Positions 41,925 to 56,585 of a stretch of 64,000 nucleotides of DNA are shown here, one piece after another. Source of the stretch: Candidatus Methanoperedens nitratireducens (GTDB taxonomy: Archaea; Halobacteriota; Methanosarcinia; Methanosarcinales; Methanoperedenaceae); NCBI GenBank assembly GCA_020724545.1, contig DYGR01000010.1, forward strand, positions 1-64,000, given 5' to 3'. A program made the position numbers and the translations under genes. Within the stretch, counting starts at the first letter, position 1, and each line of letters starts with the position of its first letter. The notes beneath the pieces were generated by a model. The model ran no database searches and was not told the origin of the DNA. It saw only the letters and a list, made by a program, of their open reading frames with translations.

Positions 41925-42012
41925 TTTTTAGCACCTAGACCTGTCATATTCTTCGGGTTAATCAAAAACTTTATCCTTTTAAGATGCATTAACGGGATTA
42001 CTCCATCAGAGT

Positions 42013-42085: not shown

Positions 42086-42152
42086 TCATATATTTTCTTT
42101 AAGGCCCTATCAGAAAATATATGTACAATTAGATATAATGATGGAGGAATAT

Positions 42153-43169
42153 ATGGTAGAACTCTATCCATACCAGAGGGCTTTAGAGCGAGTTTTAGGA
42201 AAGGTCGACACACTTGAAGAAGATACTGAGTATATAAAGAAGTGGTATAGGTATTTAAAAACTGATAAAAATGAAAGCTTGAGCGTGGCACGCATTGTAA
42301 AAATGCTCAGGAACATATCACTGTGCTCAGACCGATTCAAAGAAAGGTTTGGTAAAAGGTTAATCAAAGCTACAAAAGAAGAGATAACTGAGTTAATAAT
42401 TGAGATTCAGGATAGTGATAGAGCAGAACTGACAAAACGAGATTACAACATAGCAATCAAGAAATACCTGACTTTTGCTGGAAAGGGCGATCAGGTCGAC
42501 TGGATAAAAACCTATGTATCTGATAAAAAACGAAAACTTCCTGAAGATATGATAACAGAGGCTGAGGTCAATCTGCTCATAGATAAAGCCCAGAATTCAC
42601 GCGATAAAGCCATGTTTGCTCTGCTGGCAGATACGGGTTCGAGAATTGGGGAAAACTGGATAGAAAACCATCCACGACCAGATAGGGATAACTGGCTTTT
42701 TGTGACCCTAGATAAGAACTGTGGCAGACTTGTTTATGCAGCAGCACGCCAAACATTGTTAGATGCTGTCGCCGCAGCCGGAATAAAGAAGAGGGTGCAT
42801 GCGCAGTTATTCCGGCATACCGCAGCGACCCGTGCAGCCAGCTTTATGACCGAGCAAGAAATGAAGATTCATTTTGGATGGGAACCAGGCAGTAAAATGC
42901 CTGCTATCTATGTGCATATGGATGGTAAGCAGGTTGATAACAAACTATTAACACATTATGGTTTAAAAACCTTCGAAGAAGATGGCAAAGGCACGCTTAT
43001 CAAGTGTCCAAAGTGCGCTCGTTTGAACCCAATAACTTCGCGGTTTTGCGGCAACTGTGCATGTATCATAGATGCCAAATTAATGACTCAATCAGACACA
43101 ATCCATGAAAAGATTGCAAGGGTCAAAGAATACTTGTTCCAAAGCCAAGAGTCCGTGAGAGATTCATGA
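42153..43169 (+). CDS. Tyrosine recombinase/integrase, catalytic core damaged
   Basis: 338 residues from the ATG at 42153 with GGAGG at 42143-42147. N-terminal SAM-like core-binding domain (about 1-120), catalytic domain, then a C-terminal zinc ribbon (CPKCARLN..CGNC). Arg is in TGSRIGE and Tyr in AIYVHMDG, but the text jumps from SRIGE straight to NWIENHPRPDRDNWLFV, lacking about 45-50 residues with the beta-hairpin lysine, and the usual HxxR reads QLFR. Likely inactive. Confidence 0.75.
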   Translation: MVELYPYQRALERVLGKVDTLEEDTEYIKKWYRYLKTDKNESLSVARIVKMLRNISLCSDRFKERFGKRLIKATKEEITELIIEIQDSDRAELTKRDYNIAIKKYLTFAGKGDQVDWIKTYVSDKKRKLPEDMITEAEVNLLIDKAQNSRDKAMFALLADTGSRIGENWIENHPRPDRDNWLFVTLDKNCGRLVYAAARQTLLDAVAAAGIKKRVHAQLFRHTAATRAASFMTEQEMKIHFGWEPGSKMPAIYVHMDGKQVDNKLLTHYGLKTFEEDGKGTLIKCPKCARLNPITSRFCGNCACIIDAKLMTQSDTIHEKIARVKEYLFQSQESVRDS

Positions 43170-43397
43170 CATGCTATACTGTGTCTGGAGTCTAAATAAT
43201 TCCGGGCGGACTCTGTACATGGAGTCAATAATCCGAACAATCTTCTTATTTTTACACGCCAAATGGAGTACTCTTATTTTATAGAATGAGCTCTGAAATC
43301 TAAATCCCTATAGGGGCTTTACTTGATGAGAACTATTTAAGTATTGAGGGAAACTTTGTATAATGATTACACCTTATAATTTAAAAGAGAAATTAAC

Positions 43398-43562
43398 ATG
43401 AAAAACTTTCAAAAGATTGGCGGATTTGCCGCATTGTACCTGGCAATAGCATACTTAGTTGGGATAGTGCTGTTTCTTTTTGTGCTTGATTATCCGAGTA
43501 TTGTAGAACCCTCTCAGAAGATAGATTTACTTGTAAATCAACAAACTCTCATATACCTATAG
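43398..43562 (+). pseudogene. Membrane protein gene truncated by an IS
   Basis: 54 codons: MKNFQKIGGFAALYLAIAYL continuing through a membrane segment to VNQQTLIYL, then a TAG that lies inside the left inverted repeat of the insertion sequence. The start resembles multi-pass DUF4386-like membrane proteins of about 200 residues, so most of the gene is gone. The gap 43170-43397 before it holds only AT-rich promoter-like sequence. Confidence 0.65.
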
Positions 43563-44937
43563 TTTAGCACTTTTGGTAGTCATAAATATTTCGGTGAAAA
43601 TCTATTAAAACACTTTAAAAATTATTCATTTTTCTGTAATTGTCCTCTCAACCTGTATTTCATTTGCACGGTCAATTAAGCTGTTAAACTCATTAATGAC
43701 CCTATCATTTTCATGAGTTATGCCCAGCTTCCGTAAAAGCCTAAAAAATAGCTGTAGCAAACATTCCCTCTGGAACATTATTCTCCTCTGACCTGTAGTG
43801 ATGCCTGCATTCTTGTACCACGGACGATATACAGGTTGAGCATGCATAGTAATTTTTGTAAATGGAAGCAACTGCAACAGGGAATGTGCAACAAAACATA
43901 GTGTTACATGCTTTGTCATCCCTTCTTTGCTTCTAACTCTGTAGTCAGCCATTTTCCCCAACTGTTTCAATTCGCGGAAGGCAAGTTCTATTTTCCATCT
44001 TGCTGAGTATAATTGCAATACTCTTGCAGGGGGAAGGAAAATATTAGTACTGAAAAGAGCGATCGGTTTGTTATTCACATCCCTGGTGATCACCAGCAGT
44101 ACCAGCTTATCCCAACCTCTAATCTTAACAAGTTTGGAACCCAGGTCTACAATCTTTTTCTTACCATATATCGTTACTTCTGTGGGTATGAAGAAATTTT
44201 CACCTTCAGCAAGTTGTTTAATATAGAGTCTATCGCCATACTTTCTTGGTCGTCCCCGCTTAATTCTCGATTATTTCCACTCCCAGCTCCAGTTTTGTTT
44301 TAAATTGGATCGAATTCTCGATGTACTTCTTCCTCACGTAAAGCAAAGCACAGATTGGAAAAAATAACCAACCAGTTCCAAATTGAAATAAAAGCCCAAA
44401 GCATACCCAACAATTTGCCCAAATCTTATTTCCTTTCTTGTTGTTATGAGGCTTATGATACCAACTCACTCCATAAAATTTTGACCCGTGTTTTTCGGTG
44501 TAAGTATCATCAAGGGCTCCTATTATTTCTAAACGCTCACCGTCAGCGACTGGTTTTATGGTTTTCAAGAGCAACCAAAATAATTTCTTTGAAACTTCGA
44601 TTGCAGTCCACTGGTAATGACTTAAGAATCTGTGGTAGTTTGTCCAATGCTTCTTACTGCTGCTGGAAAGATATACATTGGTGACAAATCCTTCTTTATC
44701 AAGTCCCATGAAGGATAGTATAAAGTGACAGAAGTATTCGAAACTCGGTGCTGTAAATAAGTTCTGAAAATTTAACAATAAGAAAAGTATTTCTGTTGGC
44801 TCGATTATGTTAATCATGGTATGGGCCTTTAAAACCATACCACCTGCTTTTAATAAAAATTGTTCGATACCAAGCGAAGAAATCAAAATTTAAAATATTG
44901 TATTATATATTTAAAAATGAAAAATGCTAAACTATAG
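43557..44937 (-). mobile_element. IS4-superfamily insertion sequence, about 1.38 kb
   Basis: Terminal inverted repeats are visible: left CTATAGTTTAGCACTTTT (43557-43574) and right AAAATGCTAAACTATAG (44921-44937), matching at 16 of 17 positions. Between them is one leftward transposase frame with a frameshift. No target duplication is seen (flanks ATATAC and AACAAT), so one side may have been deleted after insertion. Confidence 0.8.
43626..44886 (-). pseudogene. IS4-superfamily transposase, single frameshift
   Basis: N-terminal part 44886-44260 contains the first catalytic aspartate in IGALDDTYTEK; the C-terminal part, open from about 44262 to 43626, has RGRPRKYG, a second Asp in VITRDVNNKP and the YREK motif in YSARWKIELAFRELK. 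The two are one base out of register around 44260. Total about 420 residues. Possibly inactive unless frameshifting is programmed. Confidence 0.8.
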
Positions 44938-45093
44938 AACAATAAACGAATAACCAATAAACAAGTAAAGGAACTTCTTGGTTATAATCATACAGATACT
45001 CCTCAGGCAAGGAAACTACTTCTAAAACTTGTTAAAGAGAATTTTGTTATACAAATGGGAAATAAAAGAGGTACCTATTATGAAGCCACCTAA
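44938..45093 (+). pseudogene. C-terminal winged-helix fragment
   Basis: Open frame starting exactly at the IS right end, no start codon: ITNKQVKELLGYNHTDTPQA then RKLLLKLVKENFVIQMG and GTYYEAT. This matches the terminal HTH of AlbA_2/Schlafen-type ATP-binding regulators. The rest of the gene is not on the other side of the IS, so the insertion was accompanied by deletion. Confidence 0.55.
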
Positions 45094-45118
45094 ATTTGCG
45101 ATAAAGGCATTATATCAC

Positions 45119-45190
45119 AAACGATATGTCTTTATCATAAACGATATGTCTTTATCATAAACGATATGTCTTTATCATAAATGATATGTT
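45119..45190. repeat. 20-bp tandem repeat overlapping the relE 3' end
   Basis: Unit AAACGATATGTCTTTATCAT is repeated exactly at 45119, 45139 and 45159, with a degenerate fourth copy from 45179. The stop codon and last codons of the RelE-like gene lie in the final unit, so the repeat grew from that gene's end. No spacers, hence not a CRISPR. Confidence 0.9.
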
Positions 45191-45444
45191 TTTTCATCTC
45201 TTTTATCTATTTTGATTACAGTAATCGCCTTATTATTCCAATCTATATCATAAACAATCCTGTATCTTGAGATTCTTAAGCGGTAGGTGTCCTCTTCGCC
45301 TGCGAGCTTTTTGATATCGTATTCCTTTATTGGTAGCGGAGAAGTCTTAAGAGTAAGAAGAGCTTTTATTGCTTTCTCTGCTATCCGCTTATCAAGATTC
45401 TTTAAAGCTTTTTTAGCAGCGTTGCTTAAGAAAATTTCAAACAT
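45175..45444 (-). CDS. RelE/ParE-type toxin
   Basis: 89 residues of the RelE fold: MFEIFLSNAAKKALKNLDKR start, a LKTSPLPIKEYDIKKLAGEE middle with YRLRISRYRIVYDID and a closing KIDKRDEKTYHL. RelE toxins cleave ribosome-bound mRNA. The antitoxin gene overlaps by eight bases upstream. Full length, so the pair may be active. Confidence 0.88.
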   Translation of the reverse strand: MFEIFLSNAAKKALKNLDKRIAEKAIKALLTLKTSPLPIKEYDIKKLAGEEDTYRLRISRYRIVYDIDWNNKAITVIKIDKRDEKTYHL

Positions 45445-45640
45445 TCAATTCCGCAAGCACGTCATCCAGTCTGGATTTTTCACCGCGCTTCGTCTCTTCA
45501 CGTATCTTATGGATCTCCGACCTCTCCTCATCGCTGATTTCTTCTTCAGGAATCAGGGCACTTCTGATCAGTTCTATTTCTCGTCTGAGTGTTTTTATCT
45601 CATTGTATATTGTATCTAAAGATGCTTGCATTGCATTCAT
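45437..45640 (-). CDS. Antitoxin of the RelE-like toxin
   Basis: 67 residues, highly charged: a helical IYNEIKTLRREIELIRSALI part and an acidic/basic tail ending RLDDVLAELNV that would wrap the toxin. No ribbon-helix-helix is obvious. First gene of the pair, overlapping relE by eight bases, which fits antitoxin-first coupled translation. Confidence 0.8.
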   Translation of the reverse strand: MNAMQASLDTIYNEIKTLRREIELIRSALIPEEEISDEERSEIHKIREETKRGEKSRLDDVLAELNV

Positions 45641-45727
45641 GCCTCGTAAATTGGTTTTATTATGAGACCTTGAGGGGTTTTTCTACAAGATTGTATATAG
45701 TTGTTTACATGATGTATCTAAAGAGCT

Positions 45728-45898
45728 TTATTCAGGACTAAGAGTCGCTTTCTTTATAATGATGTTGCGATTCTCATCTTCATAAAAGGCAATTATGTCT
45801 CCTTGTTTAAGGTTTAATTTTTGAGACACCTCTTTTATGATTGTTATCTTGTTATCCGTGCTGGTTTTAGATGTTCCCAATAATTTCATATTTCTCAT
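45728..45898 (-). CDS. AbrB/SpoVT-family regulator
   Basis: 56 residues: MKLLGTSKTSTDNKITIIKE, then VSQKLNLKQGDIIAFYEDEN and IIIKKA, a textbook swapped-hairpin AbrB domain. Divergent from the integrase stub at 46056; three TGTACGA half-sites lie between. Probably the repressor of the island's left-right control region, binding its own promoter. Confidence 0.8.
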   Translation of the reverse strand: MRNMKLLGTSKTSTDNKITIIKEVSQKLNLKQGDIIAFYEDENRNIIIKKATLSPE

Positions 45899-45906
45899 TG
45901 TGAAAT

Positions 45907-45958
45907 TGTACGAAAGTTATATATACCTTTGTATATATACGATTGTACGATTCGTACA
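45907..45958. promoter_or_regulatory. Bidirectional control region with TGTACGA operators
   Basis: TGTACGA half-sites at 45907-45913 and 45944-45950 and its complement TCGTACA at 45952-45958, the last two forming the perfect palindrome TGTACGA-T-TCGTACA. Between them TATATATACC and GTATATATAC offer TATA boxes for both strands. The layout suggests autoregulation by the adjacent AbrB protein. Confidence 0.6.
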
Positions 45959-46055
45959 CATTAAACGAATCATGAGCTGATCCAGGGATCGTGAGCGCCC
46001 TGGAGTCGTGATCGTTCGCGTGCCATAGCCGATGAAACACGGAGGTAAAAAGAAT

Positions 46056-46232
46056 ATGAGTATCAACATTAAGGGTTTCCTGGAAGATTGCAGGGCAAGA
46101 GGATTGACCGAACACACCATAGCGACCTATAAATCAAACATCGCTACATTCCTTAATTTCGTAGGCGATCCCCTCAATGTTGATATTCCCATCCTCTGTC
46201 AGCCAAAGCGAAACTCAGAGGGCAACGGTTAG
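46056..46232 (+). pseudogene. Integrase N-terminal stub
   Basis: 58 codons from the ATG at 46056 (GGAGGT at 46041-46046). MSINIKGFLEDCRARGLTEH followed by TIATYKSNIATFLNFVGDP is the core-binding (SAM-like) domain of a XerC/D-type recombinase. The catalytic domain is absent and the frame ends in unrelated residues. A second, independent integrase relic in the island. Confidence 0.7.
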
Positions 46233-46520
46233 ACCTGGTGAAGGAGTGGCGGCTCACGTCGAATCAGGCCAGGCCAAGTTAATTCAGACCATATCAGGTC
46301 AATTCAACTCAATTTAAAAGGAGATAAAAGAAATAGCAAAAGCGGTTGAGGTGTTTTAAGAGAAAAGTAATGTTTTCAATGATATCTTTCGCTATGTAAA
46401 GACGTTGTCCCTTTAATAGATTTAACTTTTTTATTTTTGGCCTTGTTTTTGAGGGCTTTTTTGAAACAAAACCAGCATACACGGACCATCCCCGGATACT
46501 TGATATACGTTACCTTTTCT
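46233..46520. other. Gene-free stretch before the structural module
   Basis: No convincing ORF. It holds a run of TCAGGCCAGGCCAAG/AATTCAGACC-like short repeats near 46265-46315 and T-runs (TTTTTTATTTTT near 46428) that could end transcription from the left. Confidence 0.5.
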
Positions 46521-46550
46521 TCCTCCAACTAAGGAGGATACTATATACAG
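46521..46550 (+). promoter_or_regulatory. Promoter of the structural module with upstream palindrome
   Basis: The perfect palindrome TCCTCC-AACTAA-GGAGGA (46521-46538) directly precedes a TATA-like CTATATACAG (46541-46550). Transcription should begin near 46570, leaving a leader of only about ten bases before the ATG at 46581. The palindrome overlaps the TFB contact region, so a bound protein would control TFB/TBP access. Confidence 0.55.
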
Positions 46551-46580
46551 TATTAAAAAGTTATGCAAGAATTATTACTG

Positions 46581-46994
46581 ATGAATCCAGCTAAACATGG
46601 AAAACATTCCAGACACTTCAAGGTTATTTTTCCAAGAGGCGTTCGGAAATTGCATGCAAACCCTGGAAGCATTGAGAAATATGCAGGCAAGAAACTTCCG
46701 TTAATCGGTGCCACTGGCAAGCAGGTTGCAGGCGCCATCGGAGGCGCAGCCGCAACTGTTGCTGCACCGAAGCTGCTGAAATATGACGGATGGAAGGACA
46801 TTATTGCAAGCGGCGTTGTCGCGGTCGTGGGCGGCAGCCTGGTTAGAGGCGTTGACAAAGAAGCAGGTGACGCTTTCCTGTACACGGGACTGGGCGTAAC
46901 CGGCTTAAAAGCAGTCAGCGCACTGATCAAGGCAGCCAGAGGCCGGAACGGAAGGCAAGAACCGCACGCAGACCAGCACCCGGACGCCGCATAA
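46581..46994 (+). CDS. Glycine/alanine-rich membrane protein, putative virion component
   Basis: 137 residues from the ATG at 46581; an in-frame ATG at 46563 would lie upstream of the predicted transcript start. A basic N-terminus (KHGKHSRHFKVIFPRGVRK) precedes two or three hydrophobic Gly/Ala-rich segments (VAGAIGGAAATVAAPKLL; IIASGVVAVVGGSLVRG; LYTGLGVTGLKAVSALI) and a basic polar tail. Similar small membrane proteins occur in internal-membrane viruses, but no family is recognised. First gene of the module. Confidence 0.6.
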   Translation: MNPAKHGKHSRHFKVIFPRGVRKLHANPGSIEKYAGKKLPLIGATGKQVAGAIGGAAATVAAPKLLKYDGWKDIIASGVVAVVGGSLVRGVDKEAGDAFLYTGLGVTGLKAVSALIKAARGRNGRQEPHADQHPDAA

Positions 46995-47017
46995 GACCCG
47001 TAGGCGATGTAGGGAAT

Positions 47018-47152
47018 ATGTCCGATGAGGAACTGGATCGGCTCCTGGGAGACCTGGGCAATGAAGACCTGGATCTGGACTTCGATGTCGATCTCTTCGG
47101 CGCCCTGAATGCAGGCATAGATGACCTGGGACAGGAAGTAATCCTTTCGTAA
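47018..47152 (+). CDS. Very acidic small protein
   Basis: 44 residues, about a third Asp/Glu: MSDEELDRLLGDLGNEDLDL followed by DFDVDLFGALNAG. Lies between the membrane-protein gene and the 163-residue gene, same strand, with only 13 bases before the next ATG. Strong acidity suggests a scaffold, DNA mimic or partner of the basic first gene product. Not recognised. Confidence 0.5.
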   Translation: MSDEELDRLLGDLGNEDLDLDFDVDLFGALNAGIDDLGQEVILS

Positions 47153-47165
47153 GGAGTGAAAAAAC

Positions 47166-47657
47166 ATGAACTTCATACCACTAAGACATGAAAAGGCATA
47201 CACCATCCTTGAGAACGTAAGGAAACAGGCTGAGGCATACGCACAGCAGGTAGGGAAGACGCAGAACCTCAAAATGAGAGTAGAGGCGCTGCGGCCGGTA
47301 CACCTTGGTCTTACAGCTACCACCTACAAGCTTGAGTACAGCTCTGGCAATGAGAAGAAGTACACTCTCACACAGAACTGCGGCATATTCCTTGCAGGGA
47401 TAATGCAGTACGAGAGCGGAATGACGCATATAACTATAAGGAACGGTCAGAACCTGCTTGGCGTCTGGACCACAAGACCTGTGTTCAAATACCAGGAACA
47501 GGCAGGTATCTACACAGGCAACGTGGAGAACTACAGTTTCCGCTCAGGTGAGTCCATGGGCGTACAGATCGCTGGAGTAACAGCAGATCCTGATGCCTGG
47601 CTAATAGGCTACGCGGTGATGCCTGAATCCCTTGTGAACTCAAAGATCGTGGCGTAA
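47166..47657 (+). CDS. Putative structural protein, capsid candidate
   Basis: 163 residues, soluble, with a short N-terminal helix (YTILENVRKQAEAYAQQVGK) and then mostly beta strands (VHLGLTATTYKLEYSSG, MTHITIRNGQNLLGVW, NVENYSFRSGESMGVQIAG). AAGGAGTGAA precedes the start. A strong terminator-like hairpin overlaps its stop, which would make its transcript the most abundant of the operon, as expected for a coat protein. No homologue recognised. Confidence 0.6.
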   Translation: MNFIPLRHEKAYTILENVRKQAEAYAQQVGKTQNLKMRVEALRPVHLGLTATTYKLEYSSGNEKKYTLTQNCGIFLAGIMQYESGMTHITIRNGQNLLGVWTTRPVFKYQEQAGIYTGNVENYSFRSGESMGVQIAGVTADPDAWLIGYAVMPESLVNSKIVA

Positions 47658-47677
47658 ACGCCATGATCTCTTTTTTT
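47644..47677 (+). terminator. Intrinsic-terminator-like hairpin at the end of the 163-residue gene
   Basis: An 11-bp stem AGATCGTGGCG/CGCCATGATCT (one G-T pair) with loop TAAA, followed by seven T (47671-47677). The stop codon TAA is the loop itself. Very compact; likely partial termination since co-directional genes continue 29 bases later. Confidence 0.75.
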
Positions 47678-47705
47678 GAGGTTTTTGAGGAGAAAAGGTG
47701 AAATC

Positions 47706-48101
47706 ATGGAAATAAGAAGCGTAGACACAGGCGCAGGCACAGAGCAGGTGATCATCACCGCAACCGTGAGCTGCATAGGAGCAGATGCAGGCACGATCGA
47801 GGTCCTGAATACGCTGCCTTTTGCGCTTGAGATCACAGAGATACGAGCTGTGCTCACAGGCAAGCTTGTAACAGCATCAAGCACCCATTCTATAAAGGTG
47901 ACAAACGGCACGAACGATATCTGCGCAGACGTAGCGTTCGCACTTGCAGATACGATCGGCACCGAGAAGGTGGGCACGATATCCGCCACATACAAGAGGA
48001 TCAGCGGCGCCATGAAGCTTGCTATCGTAGGCACGGCAGGCGGGACAGCAAGCACAGGCGGTCATGCCCTTGTGATCATCAAGGCACAGAGGGTCGAATA
48101 A
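47706..48101 (+). CDS. Putative beta-rich structural protein
   Basis: 131 residues from the ATG at 47706 (GGAGAAAAGGTG upstream; an earlier TTG at 47676 is unlikely). Alternating Ile/Val/Thr pattern (EQVIITATVSCIGADAG, ALEITEIRAVLTGKLV, AMKLAIVGTAGG) suggests a small all-beta, possibly jelly-roll, protein. Follows the putative coat gene. Not recognised. Confidence 0.55.
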   Translation: MEIRSVDTGAGTEQVIITATVSCIGADAGTIEVLNTLPFALEITEIRAVLTGKLVTASSTHSIKVTNGTNDICADVAFALADTIGTEKVGTISATYKRISGAMKLAIVGTAGGTASTGGHALVIIKAQRVE

Positions 48102-48181
48102 ATCCAAAATCTGATCACCCTGGCAGGGGACTCTCAGGGTTACAATCGGGTCCCTAACAACAACAAGGTTAACGTGATAAT

Positions 48182-48790
48182 ATGACACTAAATGTTTATG
48201 AGAATTACAGGCTTGCCCTGCCAGTTCTTAAAGTCGGGCATATAATCAAAGCGGGCAGCGGTTCAAAAGGTGGCACAGGATTCTGGATCATCAGGAAGGT
48301 GATGGAAGGCAGGGTCCTGATCAACGAGAGCTCGATCGTGACAAAGAAAAAATGGGTTTCAGCAAGCGGCGATGCGTACAGACAGGTATCAGGCAATCTC
48401 GATACCCAGAGGATCGTACATCTGCAGTACCTTGCAGCCCTGGATGCGAACGATGCGCTGATATACTGGATGAAGGACCCCCTGTTCAGCCCAGAGAATG
48501 ATAGCACTGTGAACAGCACGATCGCACCTGATACGAATCCCTTGCGGCTTGATAAGTGGAGCTATGATCAGTCAATGTTCATGGCCGTAACTATAGCCTC
48601 TTCAGCGGACCGCAGGCTTATTGTGGAAACTGTGAATTATGAAGTCCAGGCATTGGGCGGGCAAGCTCCCAGGAAGTATCTTGAGATCACAAGTGAGGGA
48701 AATGCAACTTTTGTGGAGATGCCAGAACCTGCAAGGATCCCGCCGCCGCCAAGAAGGGTGTTCAGGGATGAATATCCTGAGGAGGAATAA
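48182..48790 (+). CDS. Putative structural protein
   Basis: 202 residues. Mixed beta-rich core (LKVGHIIKAGSGSKGGTGFW, MFMAVTIASSADRRLIVETV) and a Pro/Arg/acid-rich C-terminal tail (PARIPPPPRRVFRDEYPEEE) that looks unstructured, as in proteins that tether parts of a particle. Between it and the gene before are weak hairpins (ACCCTG/CAGGGT at 48117-48140). Not recognised. Confidence 0.55.
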   Translation: MTLNVYENYRLALPVLKVGHIIKAGSGSKGGTGFWIIRKVMEGRVLINESSIVTKKKWVSASGDAYRQVSGNLDTQRIVHLQYLAALDANDALIYWMKDPLFSPENDSTVNSTIAPDTNPLRLDKWSYDQSMFMAVTIASSADRRLIVETVNYEVQALGGQAPRKYLEITSEGNATFVEMPEPARIPPPPRRVFRDEYPEEE

Positions 48791-48798
48791 GTAAAGGA

Positions 48799-48836
48799 AT
48801 AGGTAAACCGTTTTACCTATATCTCTACCTTTTTTC
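48799..48836 (+). terminator. Hairpin plus T-run inside the structural operon
   Basis: Perfect 9-bp stem ATAGGTAAA-CCGT-TTTACCTAT (48799-48820), then CTCTACC and a T6 run to 48835. Eight bases after the 202-residue gene; the next gene begins at 48855. A second attenuation-like signal in the same operon. Confidence 0.7.
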
Positions 48837-48854
48837 AGGAGGATATTCACCATC

Positions 48855-49406
48855 ATGCCCTTCGATCACAAGAAAGTCTCAACTTCTAAAGTTGAGGAGA
48901 ACAAAACAGCCCGGAAAGAAAAAACGCCAGAGTCGGCCAGGATAGAGGATGTCCTGAAATCCTTATCTGTCGCCTTTTCTGAATCAGGTAAGAAACTGGA
49001 TGCGATCCTTGATACATTGCAGGTCCTTCACGACATTGATGAGCGTGAGCCGATAGAGGTCGTATATCCAACAGGCGGGGCCCTCAAAAATCTGCCCACA
49101 GGAAAATCTACGTTTGATTTTATGGAGGGCAGCGTGGTCTTTGCAGACAGCTCTGCTGGCGATCTGGAGCGAAGCCTCAAAAAAACCGAGAGGTACATGC
49201 GTTCCATCACCATCGAGGCGCAGACACTTGATGTGACCGTGTTCTTTGACGGCGATAAGAGAGGGACAAAACTGGCCGCAGGACGCGTACTCAGGCTTTC
49301 GAACACAAAGTTCCGGTCGATGATCGTGAGCACAGGAGGGGCGACAGAAAGCATCCGCTTCTGGGCTTCAACGAGCAGATATGGAGGTCTGGTCGAGGTA
49401 AAATAG
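48855..49406 (+). CDS. Putative structural protein with helical N-terminus
   Basis: 183 residues. A charged N-terminal tail and helix (ARIEDVLKSLSVAFSESGKK LDAILDTL) is followed by a beta-rich C-terminal domain (SITIEAQTLDVTVFFDGDKR; LSNTKFRSMIVSTGG; IRFWASTSRYGGLVEVK). This stalk-plus-beta layout, shared with the next gene, is typical of fibre or decoration proteins that trimerise through the helix. GGAGGATATT precedes the start. Confidence 0.55.
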   Translation: MPFDHKKVSTSKVEENKTARKEKTPESARIEDVLKSLSVAFSESGKKLDAILDTLQVLHDIDEREPIEVVYPTGGALKNLPTGKSTFDFMEGSVVFADSSAGDLERSLKKTERYMRSITIEAQTLDVTVFFDGDKRGTKLAAGRVLRLSNTKFRSMIVSTGGATESIRFWASTSRYGGLVEVK

Positions 49407-49416
49407 AGGTCAAATA

Positions 49417-49872
49417 ATGGGATCTATCTTTGCTGAAATTGAAGAGAAATTGCCCATCCAGCAGGTCGTGGGCGATGCGGTGAGAAGCCTTCAAGACGGC
49501 GGTGGCAGTCAGGATCCTGTAATTGAGCGGCTGGATAAGATCATTGTATTGCTTGGCAGGCTGGCATTTCAGCCTGATTATGCCCAACTCCTGCCAAAAG
49601 TGTATAATATCAACATCCAGCTATCCAATAATGAAGTCCCTCTGGGGATGATGAGGCAGGCCAATAGTGTTACTTTCTTGAAAACTGAAGTTGATCTGCA
49701 GATCAAGATAGCAGTCATTATCAATAACGCTGAGGTAGTGATGACTGAATGGAAGAGGATTCCCGCAGGCAGGGATACGAAGATCGATGGTATAACGATT
49801 GCTGAAATCTATTACAGCAATGGGGCTGTGACAGGCGGAACACAGGTTGAGGTTTTAGCCGTATGGATTTGA
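49417..49872 (+). CDS. Putative structural protein, related in layout to the previous gene
   Basis: 151 residues. Amphipathic helices (VVGDAVRSLQDGGG, PVIERLDKIIVLLGRLAF) then a beta domain (DLQIKIAVIINNAEVVMTEW, AEIYYSNGAVTGGTQVEVLA). Ten bases after the previous stop. The C-terminal beta domain ends at the last residue, as in particle-surface proteins. Not recognised. Confidence 0.55.
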   Translation: MGSIFAEIEEKLPIQQVVGDAVRSLQDGGGSQDPVIERLDKIIVLLGRLAFQPDYAQLLPKVYNINIQLSNNEVPLGMMRQANSVTFLKTEVDLQIKIAVIINNAEVVMTEWKRIPAGRDTKIDGITIAEIYYSNGAVTGGTQVEVLAVWI

Positions 49873-49909
49873 GGTTGGAACATGCATATACAGGAAGGAG
49901 GAATAGATA

Positions 49910-50866
49910 ATGCCTTTTTCAAGCGGTGCTAAGAGGCTCTGGGAGATCATTGATGAAATAGCCGATGGCCTGATAGCCACACCAGGAGGCTTCTGGACTA
50001 ATGGAGACGCTACATGGAATACTTCAGATAAGACCGCAAATAATGCGAGAAGGTGTCTGCGTTATCTGAATGGCACTGAGGAGCTTTATGTGGCCTTAGA
50101 GCAGATCAACCAGACAAACGGGATAAACTATTACTATACTGGCTCAGTCTGGTATTATGGTAAGGGACTGCGGATAGTATTCAGTGCATCGTGGGATTAT
50201 ACAGGTCATACCTACCCATCGAGCAATCAATCAACAATTATACCTTTTGAGGGACGTTACAATGGCGGCGTGGTTGCAGATATGGCAACCCTGTTGGTAA
50301 CATATTACCTCTGGTTTGAGTCCAATGGTTTTGTCCTGATGGGCAAACCAGAACCCAATTCAACAGATGGTGAACAGGCTAGTTTTCTGGCTGTAGTAGA
50401 GAGAAATCCGGCCAAGGAGTATTCAGACGGTTATACTAATTTTTATGCTATGGCTCTGCAAAACAGAAACAATCTGTATGATGGGGCAGATGGTGTCACT
50501 TCAATAAACAGGTTTAGGGGTATATTAAGACCTTTTGCATATCAGTACCCTGATACAGCAACCCGTTTAGGGGGGTTTGGCGTAAACGGGAACGGGATAA
50601 GTTTTGTACCAACACCTACTTATTATGCCTTCAAGAGCAGTGGCAATGGTAAAGTGTATTATGTCGAGCCGATTATTCACAATGTTTCAGATCAGCTAAC
50701 CCCGATCTTTCAGGGAGAATTGTGGTTTCCCTGGTCTGAGACCGTGGGACTGATAGACGGTGATGTTGTAGCTGTCGAAGGGGAGACTAAAAAGTTCCTG
50801 ATGAAAGCTCTTGATAGCCCCGATAGCGTAAACAGGATCAATTATGCAATAAAATATGTCGCTTAA
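49910..50866 (+). CDS. Putative surface/receptor-binding structural protein
   Basis: 318 residues, the largest of the module, rich in Tyr, Trp, Asn and Gly and without cysteine-based sites or signal peptide. WEIIDEIADGLIATPGGFW at the start, then YYYTGSVWYYGKGLRIVFSA and the block SNGFVLMGKPEPN, which is shared with the next gene (SAGFALMGKCYPN). Aromatic, beta-rich character fits a spike, tail-tip or adhesion protein. AAGGAGGAATAG is upstream. Confidence 0.6.
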   Translation: MPFSSGAKRLWEIIDEIADGLIATPGGFWTNGDATWNTSDKTANNARRCLRYLNGTEELYVALEQINQTNGINYYYTGSVWYYGKGLRIVFSASWDYTGHTYPSSNQSTIIPFEGRYNGGVVADMATLLVTYYLWFESNGFVLMGKPEPNSTDGEQASFLAVVERNPAKEYSDGYTNFYAMALQNRNNLYDGADGVTSINRFRGILRPFAYQYPDTATRLGGFGVNGNGISFVPTPTYYAFKSSGNGKVYYVEPIIHNVSDQLTPIFQGELWFPWSETVGLIDGDVVAVEGETKKFLMKALDSPDSVNRINYAIKYVA

Positions 50867-50868
50867 CC

Positions 50869-51699
50869 ATGCCAGTATTATTCGGGAGCTACACTGTCGG
50901 TACTGGATTTGTTGACGGTAGTTCACACCCTTTTGGGCTTGAGCTTTGGGTAAAGACAACAACAGCGATAGCAACAAGCATAGACGTGAGCACTACCTAT
51001 GTAGACCAGGACGGCAACCCTCCTGAAGTTACGACTGTAACTACAAGCATCCCGGCAAGCACACCAACAGGCACGTATATCAGAGTTGCACTGAATGCAG
51101 GGGATTATGCTGTTCGCGATGTAACTGACGTTACAGTTGTGGATGGCACATCGGGGAATGCATTTGAATTGGTCAGCAAAGCAGATGGTTATTATGGGAA
51201 GCCATTTGGTTTGGCTGCTAGAATCTGGGACTCTTTCAGCCCTGAGACTTTGAGCGGGATTGAGCATACAGGTGACAGCTATGCTCTTGAAGGAAATCCC
51301 TGGTTTGCCTGGACGGGTGATGCTCTCAGTGGCAGGGAGATATCAGGCGATGATTTCCCTCTGACTGGTGGAATATACGGTAATATCATTGCAGGCTACT
51401 TGAGACTTCCAAGCGGGGTGATTATCTCTACCGGCTTTAGAATCATTATCAAGAACAGTGCTGGGTTTGCTCTGATGGGTAAATGCTATCCAAACGGAGT
51501 TTACCAGATCACCCTTGATCTACAGAGATATGACAGGTCCTATCTGCTTGTAGGAAGCTCTGCAATTGAGCTATATGGTCAGTATGGTACAATGTATATT
51601 GATGGCTTCGTTACACAGTTGGGATCCAAGGATATGTACTTCCTGCCCGATCAGGAGGCGCATAGTATTGGGTTTAAAAAGAAAAGATTATTTGCCTGA
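50869..51699 (+). CDS. Putative surface protein with shared FxLMGK block
   Basis: 276 residues, starting two bases after the previous stop. First half is Thr/Val-rich (IDVSTTYVDQDG, TTVTTSIPASTPTGTYIRVA), like an Ig or beta-sandwich domain; second half holds IIIKNSAGFALMGKCYPNG, related to the preceding protein. The C-terminus is basic (GFKKKRLFA). Probably part of the same surface structure. Confidence 0.55.
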   Translation: MPVLFGSYTVGTGFVDGSSHPFGLELWVKTTTAIATSIDVSTTYVDQDGNPPEVTTVTTSIPASTPTGTYIRVALNAGDYAVRDVTDVTVVDGTSGNAFELVSKADGYYGKPFGLAARIWDSFSPETLSGIEHTGDSYALEGNPWFAWTGDALSGREISGDDFPLTGGIYGNIIAGYLRLPSGVIISTGFRIIIKNSAGFALMGKCYPNGVYQITLDLQRYDRSYLLVGSSAIELYGQYGTMYIDGFVTQLGSKDMYFLPDQEAHSIGFKKKRLFA

Positions 51700-51719
51700 A
51701 TGAAAGGAACTGGATCGGT

Positions 51720-51944
51720 ATGGGAAGAAAAAAGAGACTGAAAAAAAGGCTCAATGGGCTTAGAAAGCAGAGAGATATCCACCTGGACAAACAGGAACAG
51801 ACAACAGACGAACATTTAAAAAAAGATTATTATCCTAAAGAGATAGGAAAATTTGACAGAGATATTGATGAAACTCAGAGATTGCTCAACAGGAAGAAAA
51901 AGAGAAAGTCCTCTGATGATGAAATCGTGATAGTCTACTGGTGA
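51720..51944 (+). CDS. Small basic coiled-coil protein
   Basis: 74 residues, over a third Lys/Arg, with a long amphipathic helix (RLKKRLNGLRKQRDIHLDKQ; EIGKFDRDIDETQRLLNRKK). Likely a coiled-coil, perhaps a nucleic-acid or scaffold-binding protein. Last rightward gene of the module; its stop abuts the end of the convergent nucleotidyltransferase gene. Confidence 0.55.
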   Translation: MGRKKRLKKRLNGLRKQRDIHLDKQEQTTDEHLKKDYYPKEIGKFDRDIDETQRLLNRKKKRKSSDDEIVIVYW

Positions 51945-52910
51945 TCATTCAGGATGGGTTTCAAGATATATTTCAACAAGTTTTTCATCCGCATCTTTTA
52001 CGTAGGCATATACTGAACTCAGAAGCTCTTTGAGCATGCTTTTTGTCATCCTCTTAATTCCCTCAGGTATTTCTGTTCTTTCCGTTTCATTCATATCTTT
52101 CTCATCAAGCTGCAGGTCGCGCACTATTCTGTACAGCTTATGGATCTGCTCAAAATCGCCTTTATAATAACTCTTGAACTCTTCAGACAGGGGCGGCATA
52201 TCTTTATCGTAAAGCTGTTTGATATAATAAGCGCGCCTCAAACGCCGCATAGTATAAAGAAAAATCCTGGCTTTGCCCTCATCATCAGGTTTATGCCCTC
52301 TCACTGCTATTTTAAGATACCGCAGCCGTTTTATGCATTCGTCTATTTCAGCGAGAAGAGCGATATCATTCACCTTTTTACTGAGAAGCTGCTTCTGAAG
52401 GTCTGCGCCGATCAGAGGGATACCCTGTCTGAGGACGGTTAACAGATATGCAGGTTCTAACTCGAGCTGTTTATTAGCCTGCTTTAAAGTGAAATATTCA
52501 AGCTGGATATTGTACTTTTCCATTTCAGCTTTAAGATCCTTTTCGATCTTATCCTGGGTAATGAGTAACAGGTCATAATCAGAATCTTCCCTGTAATCTC
52601 CTCTCACCCTGCTGCCGTGAAGATAGAGGCCCTTAACCGTATGCATGTATGGGTTCAGTGCATCAACTACATGCTCCAGGACAGGATATTTCTCTATGAC
52701 TTCCAGGTCCACAGGCTTCTCGACTGGCTCGAAATACCTGCAGCCGTCACAATACAAACCAACTCTGCGCCATTCGGTTTTAGCCTGTGCTGGATGGTCC
52801 TTCACGTACACGGCCCTGAGATAATAGCCATCACATTTCGGACAGGGGATTTTTATTCTGCTAGTATGTCCTCTGCCCTGCTGCCTTCGTATTCCAATCT
52901 GCAGGCTCAT
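51945..52910 (-). CDS. Nucleotidyltransferase-domain protein with N-terminal zinc ribbon
   Basis: 321 residues. N-terminal CPKCDG and CDGCRYF pairs (about residues 23-56) make a zinc ribbon; then a Pol-beta-type nucleotidyltransferase core LHGSRVRGDYREDSDYDLLL (about 97-116) with the GS and DxD residues. The C-terminal 150 residues are helical, similar to HEPN-type partners. Could be an MNT antitoxin, tRNA-modifying or defence enzyme. TATA and a palindrome stand at its start, so the message is probably leaderless. Confidence 0.7.
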   Translation of the reverse strand: MSLQIGIRRQQGRGHTSRIKIPCPKCDGYYLRAVYVKDHPAQAKTEWRRVGLYCDGCRYFEPVEKPVDLEVIEKYPVLEHVVDALNPYMHTVKGLYLHGSRVRGDYREDSDYDLLLITQDKIEKDLKAEMEKYNIQLEYFTLKQANKQLELEPAYLLTVLRQGIPLIGADLQKQLLSKKVNDIALLAEIDECIKRLRYLKIAVRGHKPDDEGKARIFLYTMRRLRRAYYIKQLYDKDMPPLSEEFKSYYKGDFEQIHKLYRIVRDLQLDEKDMNETERTEIPEGIKRMTKSMLKELLSSVYAYVKDADEKLVEIYLETHPE

Positions 52911-52930
52911 AATTCCAGAAACGCACGTTT

Positions 52931-52971
52931 TCTATATATAGTCTGTGCAAAGAGTATATTCCTTGCACAGA
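52931..52971 (-). promoter_or_regulatory. Promoter and palindrome upstream of the nucleotidyltransferase gene
   Basis: On the minus strand a TATATATAGA box (52931-52940) lies about 25 bases before the ATG at 52910. Directly behind it is the inverted repeat TCTGTGCAA-N12-TTGCACAGA (52942-52971). A second imperfect palindrome TAAAAAGGT-AG-ACCTTTTA follows at about 52978-52998. Confidence 0.55.
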
Positions 52972-53093
52972 GATGAATTAAAAAGGTAGACCTTTTAATA
53001 TCTCAAAAATAGCGTTAGTTTCAGTGATATATATCCATTACTTCATAATTTTTTTTATCTATATATACAATGATATTGACTGGTGATATTAAG

Positions 53094-53270
53094 GTGCCAA
53101 AAATCCAGTATGGTTCTGATGGGAAGTACTCGGTCACACTGTCAAAGGATATCGTGGAGGCAAAAGGCTGGAAGGCCGGGGGTAAAGTGGAGTTCGCCAT
53201 CGTAGACCAGAAGGAAGTTTTTGCACATCCAGGTGATATCGTGATTAGATACACCCCGCCGGTCAAATGA
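53094..53270 (+). CDS. AbrB-like small DNA-binding protein
   Basis: 58 residues from GTG at 53094 with GGTGAT upstream; the ATG at 53070 abuts a TATATATAC box and would probably lie before the transcript start. Core: YGSDGKYSVTLSKDIVEAKG, then WKAGGKVEFAIVDQKEVF, similar to swapped-hairpin regulators. Twelve bases before the serine recombinase gene, whose expression it may control. Confidence 0.55.
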   Translation: MPKIQYGSDGKYSVTLSKDIVEAKGWKAGGKVEFAIVDQKEVFAHPGDIVIRYTPPVK

Positions 53271-53282
53271 GCGGATACTGTC

Positions 53283-53816
53283 ATGCGCTCAGGATCCGGG
53301 TCGACTGCTGCTCGGACGGTGAATGTGAACTTGCCGGCAGGTGCAGGGTCTTCCAGGGGGGTTGTGGGGTATATGAGAGTCAGCACAGACGATCAGAACC
53401 CTCAACTGCAAAGAGATGCACTTGCTGCTGCAGGTATCAGTGAAATTTTCTCTGATGTAGAGAGCGGATCTTCTCCTGACAGGAAAGGATATCGTAAACT
53501 TATACAGGCGATCATGAACGGATTGATCAAGAAGGTAGCGGTCTGGAAGATGGACCGCCTTGGTCGGGATCCCAGGGAATTACTGGAATTCTTCTGGTTA
53601 TGCGATGAGTTCGGGGTTGTGGTAGAAAGCCTTACTGAAGGTTTTGTGGCAAATCGTACCAGGACTCCAGGGGATTTTTTGATATGGTGGATCTCTGTGG
53701 GGCTGTCTGTGTATGAGCTGCTCACGCTGAAGATGAGGCAGAGAGCAGGTATCGAGGCAGCCAGGGCAAAGGGAAAGCATCTGGGCAGACCAAGAAAAAA
53801 TCCAGGTCCCGACTAA
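53283..53816 (+). CDS. Serine recombinase (resolvase) without DNA-binding domain
   Basis: 177 residues from ATG 53283, or about 150 if GTG 53364 is used; the first 27 residues are unusual for the family. Catalytic serine in VVGYMRVSTDDQNPQLQRDA, and VAVWKMDRLGRDPRELLEF with the conserved arginines. It stops at GKHLGRPRKNPGPD, exactly where the C-terminal helix-turn-helix normally begins. May be truncated or depend on a partner for DNA binding. Confidence 0.82.
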   Translation: MRSGSGSTAARTVNVNLPAGAGSSRGVVGYMRVSTDDQNPQLQRDALAAAGISEIFSDVESGSSPDRKGYRKLIQAIMNGLIKKVAVWKMDRLGRDPRELLEFFWLCDEFGVVVESLTEGFVANRTRTPGDFLIWWISVGLSVYELLTLKMRQRAGIEAARAKGKHLGRPRKNPGPD

Positions 53817-53996
53817 AATAGGATATATTTTTCACGTTTGTACTTCGGTAAGCGTGGCCGTGGTAATGCACTGAGCTCCTGGAGGCCTGGCCAGGTATCA
53901 CCTTAAGTCTGCAGGTCTTATGCCCTTTCAGGTTGTGATTGTGCTCAGTATTACCATGGTACTCATGGTGATGATATGGCCACACAGGCCCCTTTA

Positions 53997-54071
53997 TGCT
54001 CCGATGGGGATTTGAACCCCAGTCGTCAGAGTGAGAGTCTGACATGATTGGCCGTGCTACACTATCGGAGC
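53997..54071 (-). tRNA. tRNA-Glu (CTC)
   Basis: On the minus strand: acceptor GCTCCGA/TCGGAGC, anticodon stem TCAGA/TCTGA around CTCTCAC (anticodon CTC), T loop TTCAAAT, discriminator A. It marks the right side of the accessory island; the 180 bases between it and the recombinase gene contain no gene. Confidence 0.93.
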
Positions 54072-54177
54072 GTGGTTATCTGAACGTAATTATATGGTTA
54101 TTAAAGTTTCGTTTGTGGTGTAGTACATTATATACTTATTTATTAAAATCGTTATTGGGGATTCTTTCGCGGCTATA

Positions 54178-54681
54178 CTACTTAATCACATCTACGAGTG
54201 CGACCCTCTCTAATACAAGTTCAGGGATTTTCTCATCGCCCACAGCTTCTATTTCTTCTTTAGTGATACCGAAGGCCTGCATGATTGCTTTTTTCTTGGA
54301 TTCATTATACTGAAGCACATGCCCGGGTTTTATTTCATTAAATAGTTCATCAAGTCCTGGTATTGCATGGTCTTCCCCGACTGCAACCAGGACAATGTTA
54401 TTCTCCCCCTTATGTACTCCAAGCCTAATCGCTCTACTTATCTGCCGCGTTCCTGAGGCATAGAGCATTATTTCTTTATCAAGATCGTTTGCTATATTTC
54501 TGCCTGTTTTGAATGAGTTTATTGCTTTTTCTACTGCGAACCTGATATGCTTCTCGCCTGCCAATTTATCGGCATCAAGCGCCTGTATGGTTATATTTAT
54601 CTCTTTACTTATTTTCTTGATCTTATGCAGGAATTCATCCAGATTATCTATAAATGCCGCTCCTTCGAGGATATGGATCAT
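54178..54681 (-). CDS. KEOPS complex subunit Cgi121
   Basis: 167 residues. ALDADKLAGEKHIRFAVEKA, the MLYASGTRQISRAIRLGVHK segment and VLERVALVDVIK match Cgi121, which binds tRNA for the KEOPS complex making t6A at position 37. Other KEOPS genes are not adjacent. It is followed upstream by the PP-loop gene on the same strand. Confidence 0.9.
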   Translation of the reverse strand: MIHILEGAAFIDNLDEFLHKIKKISKEINITIQALDADKLAGEKHIRFAVEKAINSFKTGRNIANDLDKEIMLYASGTRQISRAIRLGVHKGENNIVLVAVGEDHAIPGLDELFNEIKPGHVLQYNESKKKAIMQAFGITKEEIEAVGDEKIPELVLERVALVDVIK

Positions 54682-54704
54682 TGATTCTTAATTACTGCAC
54701 GTAT

Positions 54705-56585
54705 TTAAATAAATGAGCCAAACTTCACCACAGGACATGCCCGAATGCATTTTCCGCAGTGTGTACATCTCTCGTTGATTCTTGCCGTGCCATTGATGCT
54801 GATCGCACGCTCTTTACACTGGCCCACACATACCCCGCATCCTGTACATGATAGGATGCGCCATATAGTTTTTTCTGCAAGTTCGATTAATTGTCTTGTG
54901 TTTTTCTCATCCCTGCCTCTTGCCACCACTGTACCGCTCGCATATACATGCACATTTTCCTCCCCTCGCTGTGTAAGAATTACCCCATCAATGGAATTTG
55001 TAATTCCGATTACCCTGAGCAGTCCTGTCTCTGAAACCTCCGGGAGATTCAGGGACGTACCGAAGCTGCCTTCTGCTGTTATCCCGCCTGCTTTGCAAGG
55101 CCTGTAGCCCACTGTCATGGTAAAATGAACTGGTTTTTTCTCAGGTTTTGGGATAATATCAATACCCATCTTTTCTGCGATCGATCTTATCGACTTTGGA
55201 AGAACCTGCCAGCGCCAGAAGCCGTATGTTACCCATTCATCGGGTAATCCATTCCGGGCAGCATATTCCCTGAGGTATCTCTCAAGCTTCTCACTTAACT
55301 CATGGTGAACCTCTGCTAAGCGAGAAAAATCCGCCATGCTTGCTGAAGGACACAGCCAGCATCCGATCCTGTCAAAACCCTCCTCATATAAAGGATTATA
55401 TTTTGCTTTTTTCCAGAAAAGATATAACCACACATGCAATGCGGTCCAGTTCTGGATAGGGGTAGCCCCTATCTGGTTGCCCACCCACGGATTTCTCCAG
55501 ATGTGCTCGCTGTTGGCCCTTATTTCGCTTTCGTATTTTCTCTGTCCTATAAATGTAAGGCAACCATCCTCATAGTTATTCTCGATTAACTGCGCTATCG
55601 CCCCGAGTTTGCAGACCTTGCAGCACCATCTTGCCTCTACTGTGGGCGGTCCAAAATTATCTATTGATTGCCAGAATGAATCACCAGATGAATGAGATAC
55701 AAGAGGCAAAGAGAGCTCTTCTGCTGTCTGTTTTACATTATCTATAGTCTCCTGGAACTCAAGGCCCGTATCAGCAAAAAGTATATCGAACTGTGCAACT
55801 GCGTCGTGAACAAGAAGCAGAGTGGCAAGACTATCCTTTCCACCAGAGTATGAGACGCTTACCGGTCTGTTAGAGGTCTTGATCACGTTCTTTATGAAAC
55901 TATGCGCTTTTCCCTCAAATTTTTTCAATATATGCATATTTGCAGCCACAGCATCATCCCAGCTTTTCTCTCCCGGCTGGTGTTCCACAGGCACAGGTTT
56001 CCCGTTCCAGCGTGTTTTTACAGCAATGCCCTTTTCATGAGTGAGCATCCGCTCTGCGCTCATTCTTGCCCTGCCTGTTGCAATGACCTCTTTGTGTGGC
56101 GTAAGCACAATGACCTCATCACCCTCGATGATACTTATATCAGCATCATTAACTCCGGGTGCGAGCACTGAAGCCCCTTTTATAATAAAATCGACTGCCC
56201 CTTCATCCACGACTACCCATTTCATTCCCCCTGTAAGCAGCCTTGCTCCCTCAAGCCTTGGGATGAATACCCATCCCATTTTCTCAAGTTCAAAACGAAG
56301 TGAGCCCATGATTGCGCCATCAAAGACCACCTCATCCATCCTGTCCTCGTACGGTGCCTTGTTCAGGACTACAAGCTTACCTTCAGGAATTAATTTTATA
56401 CCGAACTGTTTCTCGGTAGTCCTGTTGATAAGATCAATATCGTACTTAAAAGCCGGTCTGATATCACCTGGCGGGGTTATCTCGATCTTACCTGTACTGG
56501 CTGTGCAGGCGCAGGTTCTCCCAAGTACGGGGAGGTTGCAGGAAGGACACCAGTAGAGTAATAGCTCGCCAAGGTAATGGGTCAT
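54705..56585 (-). CDS. PAPS-reductase-like PP-loop protein with PUA and ferredoxin domains
   Basis: 626 residues. Order: N-terminal zinc knuckle (CPSCNLPVLGRTCAC), PUA domain (about 130-190), PP-loop ATPase with SVSYSGGKDSLATLLL near 245, cysteines WCCKVCK and CWLCPSA, and a C-terminal 2[4Fe-4S] ferredoxin (CTGCGVCVGQC, CTHCGKCIRAC). Members of this archaeal family are annotated as PAPS reductases; PUA suggests an RNA or thiolation substrate instead. Complete. Confidence 0.85.
   Translation of the reverse strand: MTHYLGELLLYWCPSCNLPVLGRTCACTASTGKIEITPPGDIRPAFKYDIDLINRTTEKQFGIKLIPEGKLVVLNKAPYEDRMDEVVFDGAIMGSLRFELEKMGWVFIPRLEGARLLTGGMKWVVVDEGAVDFIIKGASVLAPGVNDADISIIEGDEVIVLTPHKEVIATGRARMSAERMLTHEKGIAVKTRWNGKPVPVEHQPGEKSWDDAVAANMHILKKFEGKAHSFIKNVIKTSNRPVSVSYSGGKDSLATLLLVHDAVAQFDILFADTGLEFQETIDNVKQTAEELSLPLVSHSSGDSFWQSIDNFGPPTVEARWCCKVCKLGAIAQLIENNYEDGCLTFIGQRKYESEIRANSEHIWRNPWVGNQIGATPIQNWTALHVWLYLFWKKAKYNPLYEEGFDRIGCWLCPSASMADFSRLAEVHHELSEKLERYLREYAARNGLPDEWVTYGFWRWQVLPKSIRSIAEKMGIDIIPKPEKKPVHFTMTVGYRPCKAGGITAEGSFGTSLNLPEVSETGLLRVIGITNSIDGVILTQRGEENVHVYASGTVVARGRDEKNTRQLIELAEKTIWRILSCTGCGVCVGQCKERAISINGTARINERCTHCGKCIRACPVVKFGSFI

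Follow-up and report, generated by a model that had tools for sequence, protein, structure and literature searches.

In the order Halopanivirales, which includes the alphasphaerolipoviruses SH1, PH1 and HCIV-1 as well as HJIV1 (Simuloviridae), the virion carries a VP3-type spike. In these viruses, which are tailless and contain a membrane, VP3 and VP6 form the spikes that recognize the host at the vertices (PMC6414509, PMC4958249), and VP9 is a penton protein with an N-terminal helix (PMC6414509). Genes for VP3 and VP6 also occur alone in haloarchaeal chromosomes, and a cellular origin of VP3 was once proposed (PMC4958249). Two further groups of comparable viruses are Methanosarcina spherical virus (MetSV; Tectiviridae) and the tailless viruses of anaerobic methanotrophic archaea of group 1 (ANME-1; Huracanviridae and Chaacviridae; PMC9894754), of which Huracanviridae have single jelly-roll major capsid proteins (MCPs) (PMC9894754). 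No described virus of Ca. Methanoperedens, a genus of archaea that control methane release, was found in the literature searched. Here we analyze a module of ten open reading frames (ORFs), g1–g10, in a 64,000-nucleotide stretch (the window) of contig DYGR01000010.1 of Ca. Methanoperedens nitratireducens, which is part of a 78-kb contig in a 2.9-Mb genome of this genus. The host is a freshwater methanotroph, whereas the hosts of Halopanivirales are haloarchaea; like the ANME-1 viruses, the element has an anaerobic methanotroph as its host. We consider it probable that g1–g9, together with g10, constitute the virion cassette of a tailless icosahedral, probably membrane-containing, sphaerolipovirus-like provirus, and the cassette is a candidate capsid gene set for viruses of Ca. 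Methanoperedens.

The link to described viruses is provided by g8. An AlphaFold model of this protein, built from an alignment of 19 sequences (predicted local distance difference test score (pLDDT) 82.6, predicted template modeling score 0.87), had its best Foldseek match among viral structures in VP3, a capsid protein of the Haloarcula hispanica virus PH1, with an E-value of 5e-8; the same search against the PDB returned nothing. HHalign of g8 with VP3 of SH1, PH1, HCIV-1 and HJIV1 gave 97.5% with an E-value of 5.6e-12 over 280 columns at 21% identity, and shuffled alignments gave z-scores of 4.4 to 6.4. We conclude that g8 is homologous to VP3. In the phylogenetic tree the four VP3 proteins lie on one side and the g8 family on the other. 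SH1-type VP3 was found in the phage collection only in tailless haloarchaeal viruses.

All ten ORFs are present at 46563-51944 on one strand, and their place, direction and close spacing agree with a first-pass annotation made from the sequence alone, which had proposed a ten-gene structural module and a search for the same gene order elsewhere. The order of g1 and g3–g9 is kept in M. nitroreducens Mnv1 with 44–76% amino-acid identity; the ratio of nonsynonymous to synonymous substitution rates (dN/dS) is about 0.11–0.20, with dS near saturation, and changes fall mostly at third codon positions. The conserved order, the low dN/dS and the third-position bias indicate that these ORFs are more than chance reading frames. 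Absence of the gene order from all other genomes, named in the first-pass annotation as a refuting outcome, was thus not observed. The number of genes had to be revised. The very acidic 44-residue product of g2 is correctly described as acidic, but it is the C-terminal tail of g1 rather than a gene of its own: g1 and g2 form one ORF in Mnv1 (191 aa), in Methanoperedens STD1_6 and in G054 (another family of the order), the g2 frame of the window stays open upstream into g1 in the three-frame translation, and in the alignment with Mnv1 the reading frame switches shortly before g1 ends. Since g2 is split off from g1, the ten ORFs represent nine ancestral genes. No match to Pfam or PHROG was obtained for any of the ten proteins, but the view that they belong to no recognizable family does not hold for g8 and g9, which have clear relatives. 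Likewise, the paralogous surface blocks described earlier were not found within the window, where the sole likeness between g8 and g9 is a 13-residue motif; paralogy was observed instead in Mnv1, where g8 is present three times, once in broken form.

The module is sporadic, and its neighborhood differs in every genome that carries module genes. The gene g3 was found in 3 of the 34 genomes of the family, and credible copies of g4, g5 and g7 are limited to the window and Mnv1, besides a degraded g5 in G047, which belongs to another family. The g1-g3 pair recurs in STD1_6 and in G054; the latter holds a relic in which a truncated g1 is followed by roughly the first 30 codons of g3, and the break in g3 lies some 20 bp away from the 3' end of a tRNA-Val gene. 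Besides g1, g3 is the sole module protein common to STD1_6 and G054, and g1 homologues lie directly upstream of g3 in Mnv1, STD1_6 and G054 every time.

The closest relatives of g8 and g9 belong to tailed proviruses. The g8 profile matched in 16 of the 238 genomes of the class, mostly in one genus of the Methanosarcina family and often as tandem pairs, and g8 is 44–54% identical to the copies in tailed Methanosarcina-family proviruses (L060, L061, L063, L064 and L065), which combine g8 genes and g9-type fibre genes as the window does. Tape-measure, tail and HK97-fold head genes precede g8 in these proviruses, long g9-like proteins follow it in most cases, and the tail and head gene families were confirmed by separate searches. 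With hmmsearch, g9 matched whole proteins of 619–916 aa (E 1e-45 to 3e-28) that always adjoin g8 homologues, and its N-terminal block matched the fibres of Methanosarcina-family proviruses with E-values of 1e-24 to 5e-32. No significant match of g9 to VP6 was found, and only its position agrees. The tailed-provirus copies of g8 cluster together in the tree (93/100), whereas the order of the module copies is unsettled and the branches are long. These relationships indicate that g8-g9 is an attachment (spike/fibre) cassette exchanged between tailed and tailless viruses, in either direction. The VP3 spike is now tied to both tailed and tailless viruses. If true, one adhesin family would span two realms, Varidnaviria and Duplodnaviria, and host-recognition modules would move between unrelated archaeal virion types, which bears on host switching.

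Because the g8-g9 pair has its nearest relatives among the tail-fibre genes of tailed proviruses, it is no argument for taillessness, although the earlier proposal of a tailless virus remains the leading reading. The VP3-type spike typical of Halopanivirales is present as g8, but it is not diagnostic, as tailed proviruses carry the family too. The module might accordingly be the partial distal-tail and fibre region of a Caudoviricetes provirus, the head and tail genes having been lost in the window and lying past the contig end in Mnv1. Such an origin would account for the g8 and g9 relatives that adjoin genes for a tape measure, a major tail protein and an HK97-fold head, and the module does contain g8/g9-type fibre genes, but no terminase, portal, HK97 MCP or tape measure was recognized in it. 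Searches with profiles of g3–g5 and g7 came out empty in the tailed proviruses, and none of these four genes was credibly matched in any tailed-provirus genome of the 238 searched (g6 was searched in seven). In the tailed proviruses g8 is preceded by genes for proteins of 215–219 aa and 480 aa and for the tape measure, whereas g1–g7 occupy this place in the window. Moreover, STD1_6 holds the g1-g3 pair in 9.5 kb without a tail gene, only about 375 bp separate the integrase fragment from g1 in the window, and all head and tail genes would have to sit beyond g1. We regard a tailed origin as unlikely.

The preferred reading, a tailless sphaerolipovirus-like provirus, draws its label from the VP3 spike and the gene order. 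HJIV1 has the order 91 aa, small MCP (163 aa), large MCP (245 aa), further genes, 158 aa, VP3 (335 aa), 226 aa and 75 aa; in parallel with SH1 and HJIV1, the window presents a small candidate membrane protein, a protein of about 163–185 aa, further genes, a protein of about 150 aa, VP3, a protein of about 230–276 aa and an ORF of about 75 aa. The gene g7 directly precedes the VP3 homologue g8, which is the slot of the penton VP9 in sphaerolipoviruses. A similar layout is seen in MetSV and in two MetSV-like loci of Methanoperedens (L092 and L093), with a small gene, a gene for a protein of 146–163 aa and genes for small beta-looking proteins. In the proposed organization, g1–g9 and g10 would be the late virion-building cassette of a small Ca. 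Methanoperedens provirus that has decayed in the window genome. In it, g1 and the detached g2 tail together would encode the membrane protein associated with the capsid, while the shell would consist of the g3 product joined by that of g4, g5 or both. For g6 and g7, which both have an N-terminal helical region, a role as vertex or penton adaptors is proposed, and for g8 (VP3 family) and g9 a role as spikes that bind the receptor. Within this scheme g3 is the leading candidate for a capsid or penton protein and g6 a candidate vertex adaptor. The description of g1 as a membrane protein is plausible rather than proven, as its best 19-residue Kyte-Doolittle mean of 1.6 is marginally hydrophobic. 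The roles proposed for g1–g7 follow position and general build and are meant as parallels, not as homology; the internal membrane and the tailless shape would follow from the same comparison.

'Works like a sphaerolipovirus' is the best description on these grounds. The capsid proteins give no membership by sequence in Sphaerolipoviridae or among the MetSV-like viruses. Between Halopanivirales and the window no sequence similarity was found for the two MCPs, VP12, VP9 and VP6, and g3–g7 showed no profile similarity to VP4, VP7, VP16 and VP17. No homologue of MetSV ORF15, ORF16 (MCP) or ORF13 (ATPase) was detectable in g1–g10, and an ORF16-type MCP, which L092 and L093 do have, was not found in g1–g10 by hmmsearch and HHalign. 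Scans of IMG/VR with MetSV ORF16 and with g3, g5, g6, g7 and g8 retrieved no relative, nor did tblastn of module proteins in phage and plasmid collections, where the queries against phages included g3, g5, g6 and g8. Neither g3 nor g4 had a profile match among PDB sequences, and g4 had no relative besides Mnv1. Three candidate assignments were rejected. Homology of g1 and g3 to MetSV ORF15 and ORF16, suggested by top ranks in a 22-protein set, was dropped after HHalign; VP9 was the best profile match of g7, but neither g6 nor g7 matched it significantly (E 0.067 for g7); and weak profile matches of g3 in G169, G371 and G283 and of g7 in G155 and G224 were due to stop read-through or lay antisense to other genes. 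The candidate capsid core g1–g7 showed no sequence match to a known virus and could represent a new family; in our judgment it is an even question whether a new family of tailless viruses of ANME-2d and their relatives exchanged its VP3-type cassette with tailed methanogen viruses.

Several results weigh against a sphaerolipovirus-like virion. No sequence kinship was found between g1–g7 and the capsid, penton and membrane proteins of SH1, HCIV-1, HJIV1, PH1, P23-77 and MetSV. The closest g8-g9 relatives lie in tailed proviruses, and VP3 homology alone does not say tailless. Structure prediction with a Foldseek search, proposed in the first-pass annotation as the check for jelly-roll folds, led from g8 to PH1 VP3, but the g3 model, built from three sequences, was poor (pLDDT 49), so that its fold is not assignable and its Foldseek matches are meaningless. 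A search for spacers of clustered regularly interspaced short palindromic repeats by DNA similarity gave only short sub-threshold matches and no recognized spacer. Finally, no packaging ATPase was found in the stretches of the window, Mnv1 and STD1_6; in the window element, tblastn with five ATPases gave no match, and no credible Walker A motif was found. This absence is uninformative, because SH1-like and MetSV-like viruses carry the ATPase gene at the flank that corresponds to g1, and this flank is truncated in the window and lies beyond the contig end in Mnv1. The reported lack of terminase, portal and packaging ATPase was thus reproduced, and no tape measure or other tail gene was recognized in the window element, 13 kb of Mnv1 or the STD1_6 contig, but the missing ATPase, being partly explained by truncation, says little about taillessness. 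A tailless virion is likely but falls short of proof, because the g3 model gives no capsid fold to go by and the Mnv1 contig ends beside g1.

The absence of an ATPase and of a recognizable capsid protein would also suit another tailless form, such as a pleomorphic or spindle-shaped virus or a helper-packaged satellite, in which g1 would be a membrane protein, g3–g9 would be surface proteins and no packaging ATPase would be needed; that g1-g3 is the sole universal pair fits this as well. Nevertheless, the module has a number of different proteins that look beta-rich and that parallel those of icosahedral sphaerolipoviruses in size and order, and g1 is weakly hydrophobic, whereas the MCPs of spindle-shaped viruses are highly hydrophobic (PMC9894754). 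We consider such a form somewhat less probable still than a tailed origin.

A viral origin of the module is well supported: the reading of its genes as virion components of an integrated element is supported by synteny in a second Methanoperedens and by the VP3 homology of g8. The further suggestion of a domesticated particle or of a cell-surface appendage retained by the host found no positive support, because the module is sporadic, lies in a decaying island and contains a frameshifted gene. Retention by the host would be in line with the intact g3–g9 under purifying selection between the window and Mnv1 and with the solitary VP3 and VP6 genes of haloarchaeal chromosomes (PMC4958249); however, selection between two divergent copies mirrors viral as well as host history. 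With g3 in so few genomes, a new neighborhood each time, a frameshifted g1, broken integrases and relics in G047 and G054, domestication is very improbable.

Judged from its sequence, the element (Table 1) spans about 46.0-53.8 kb and is decayed, as its integrase is cut to 44 codons and g1 is frameshifted. The integrase fragment shows a weak Pfam SAM-like integrase match and is 52% identical to the integrase of L092 and 70% and 86% identical to those in loci L124 and L123. On the right, 94% identity to the closest relative, G001, starts at 53996, the 3' end of the tRNA-Glu, and nothing to the left of 53996 within 40001-56000 aligns with that G001 region. The nucleotidyltransferase-fold gene has a zinc-ribbon-like N-terminus and is widespread in the genus; DNA-level matches were obtained in about nine genomes of the Methanoperedens family, and the gene may be cargo of the element. 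In G032, a different genus, the g9 C-terminus, g10, the nucleotidyltransferase gene and the resolvase follow in the same order; no g10 counterpart was found in Mnv1. The cassette of Mnv1 has as neighbors an integrase gene, a gene with an ASCH domain and a few small (early) genes, and its contig ends 0.7 kb past g1. L092, in another Methanoperedens, carries the same integrase type and AbrB-like/resolvase pair as the window element.

Table 1. Features of the integrated element and its right border, with predicted roles
Feature	Position	Strand	Description
Integrase fragment	46056..46187	+	Tyrosine integrase, N-terminal fragment of 44 codons; remnant at left of element
g1	46563..46994	+	Basic, glycine-rich, marginally hydrophobic; candidate capsid-associated membrane protein; frameshifted near 3' end
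g2	47018..47152	+	C-terminal tail of g1, acidic; out of frame with g1 in the window
g3	47166..47657	+	Core module protein; predicted N-terminal helix, then strands
g4	47706..48101	+	131 aa, all-beta-looking; candidate second shell protein; 65% identical in Mnv1
g5	48182..48790	+	202 aa; candidate shell or vertex protein; 70% identical in Mnv1
g6	48855..49406	+	N-terminal helical region and beta-looking C-terminal domain; 58% identical in Mnv1
g7	49417..49872	+	N-terminal helical region and beta-looking domain; 68% identical in Mnv1
g8	49910..50866	+	Predicted VP3-family receptor-binding spike protein (structure model and profile comparison)
g9	50869..51699	+	Putative spike/fibre protein; N- and C-terminal blocks common to tail-fibre-like proteins of tailed proviruses
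g10	51720..51944	+	Small basic charged protein; G032 homologue (46%, E 5e-8) directly after g9 homologue
Nucleotidyltransferase-fold gene	51945..52910	-	Pfam Polbeta/NTP_transf_2; right part of element
AbrB-like small protein	53070..53270	+	Paired with resolvase; 46-50% to L092 and L124 genes; family by eye
Serine resolvase	53283..53816	+	Right end of element; Pfam Resolvase E 2e-29; 47% to right-end resolvase of L092
tRNA-Glu	53997..54071	-	Right border, host DNA

The two MetSV-like loci mentioned above are of interest in their own right, and no report of MetSV-like proviruses in ANME-2d was found in the literature searched. L092 (G030:C1:125000-140614), at 6690-15122, is a MetSV-like provirus of a Methanoperedens that appears complete, with an integrase, a packaging ATPase (42% to MetSV ORF13), a small capsid protein (37%), an MCP (42%), virion-like genes, an AbrB-like gene and a resolvase. 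L093 (G022:C5:9500-29400), at 8730-14210, is a second Methanoperedens cassette of this type, in which genes for an ATPase, a small capsid protein and an MCP are followed by others downstream; a ParA-like gene follows the cassette, and integrases, an AbrB-like gene and a resolvase lie further right (L124).

The STD1_6 contig that carries the g1-g3 pair (L005, G021:C57, 190-9148; 9.5 kb) is otherwise unlike the window. Its remaining genes look virus-like and encode a hydrophobic protein of 181 aa, an Ala-rich protein of 556 aa that has a hydrophobic stretch at its C-terminus, two related proteins of 128 and 129 aa, and a repeat-rich protein matching phrog_4433. It is neither circular nor terminally repeated and is probably a fragment of another virus with a common g1-g3 core.

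VP3-family fibre genes, often in tandem, were observed in the tailed Methanosarcina-family proviruses L060, L061, L063, L064, L065, L067 and L071; in L061 the MCP has a Pfam match to Linocin_M18/encapsulin (E 1e-14). The genome of the window itself holds a more remote relative of VP3/g8, at about 26% identity (L072, G000:C72:20000-36262, at 8553-12709), which is also present in two other Methanoperedens (L068 and L069), with conserved genes for 174-aa and 117-aa proteins upstream, a gene for a protein of 590–677 aa downstream and radical-SAM or PKD-like neighbors.

The integrase relics reported earlier were confirmed and are of two types. Besides the fragment at 46056-46187, the region 42013-43169 holds a tRNA-His followed directly by a tyrosine integrase (42162-43097) of the type found in the tailed Methanosarcina-family proviruses. 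Compared by eye with that of L060, it has an internal deletion and has lost part of the catalytic domain. This integrase is the remnant of a second integrated element; no exact attachment-site repeat was found at the tRNA-His. An A+T-rich stretch between the element remnants holds, at 43626-44886 and 45119-45181, broken transposase-like ORFs on the minus strand and a 20-bp tandem repeat. Two overlapping minus-strand ORFs at 45175-45640 look by eye like a RelE/ParE-type toxin and its antitoxin, and a host nitrogenase-like cluster with NifH/NifI/NifD/NifK-like ORFs, also recognized by eye, is located at 4792-9032.

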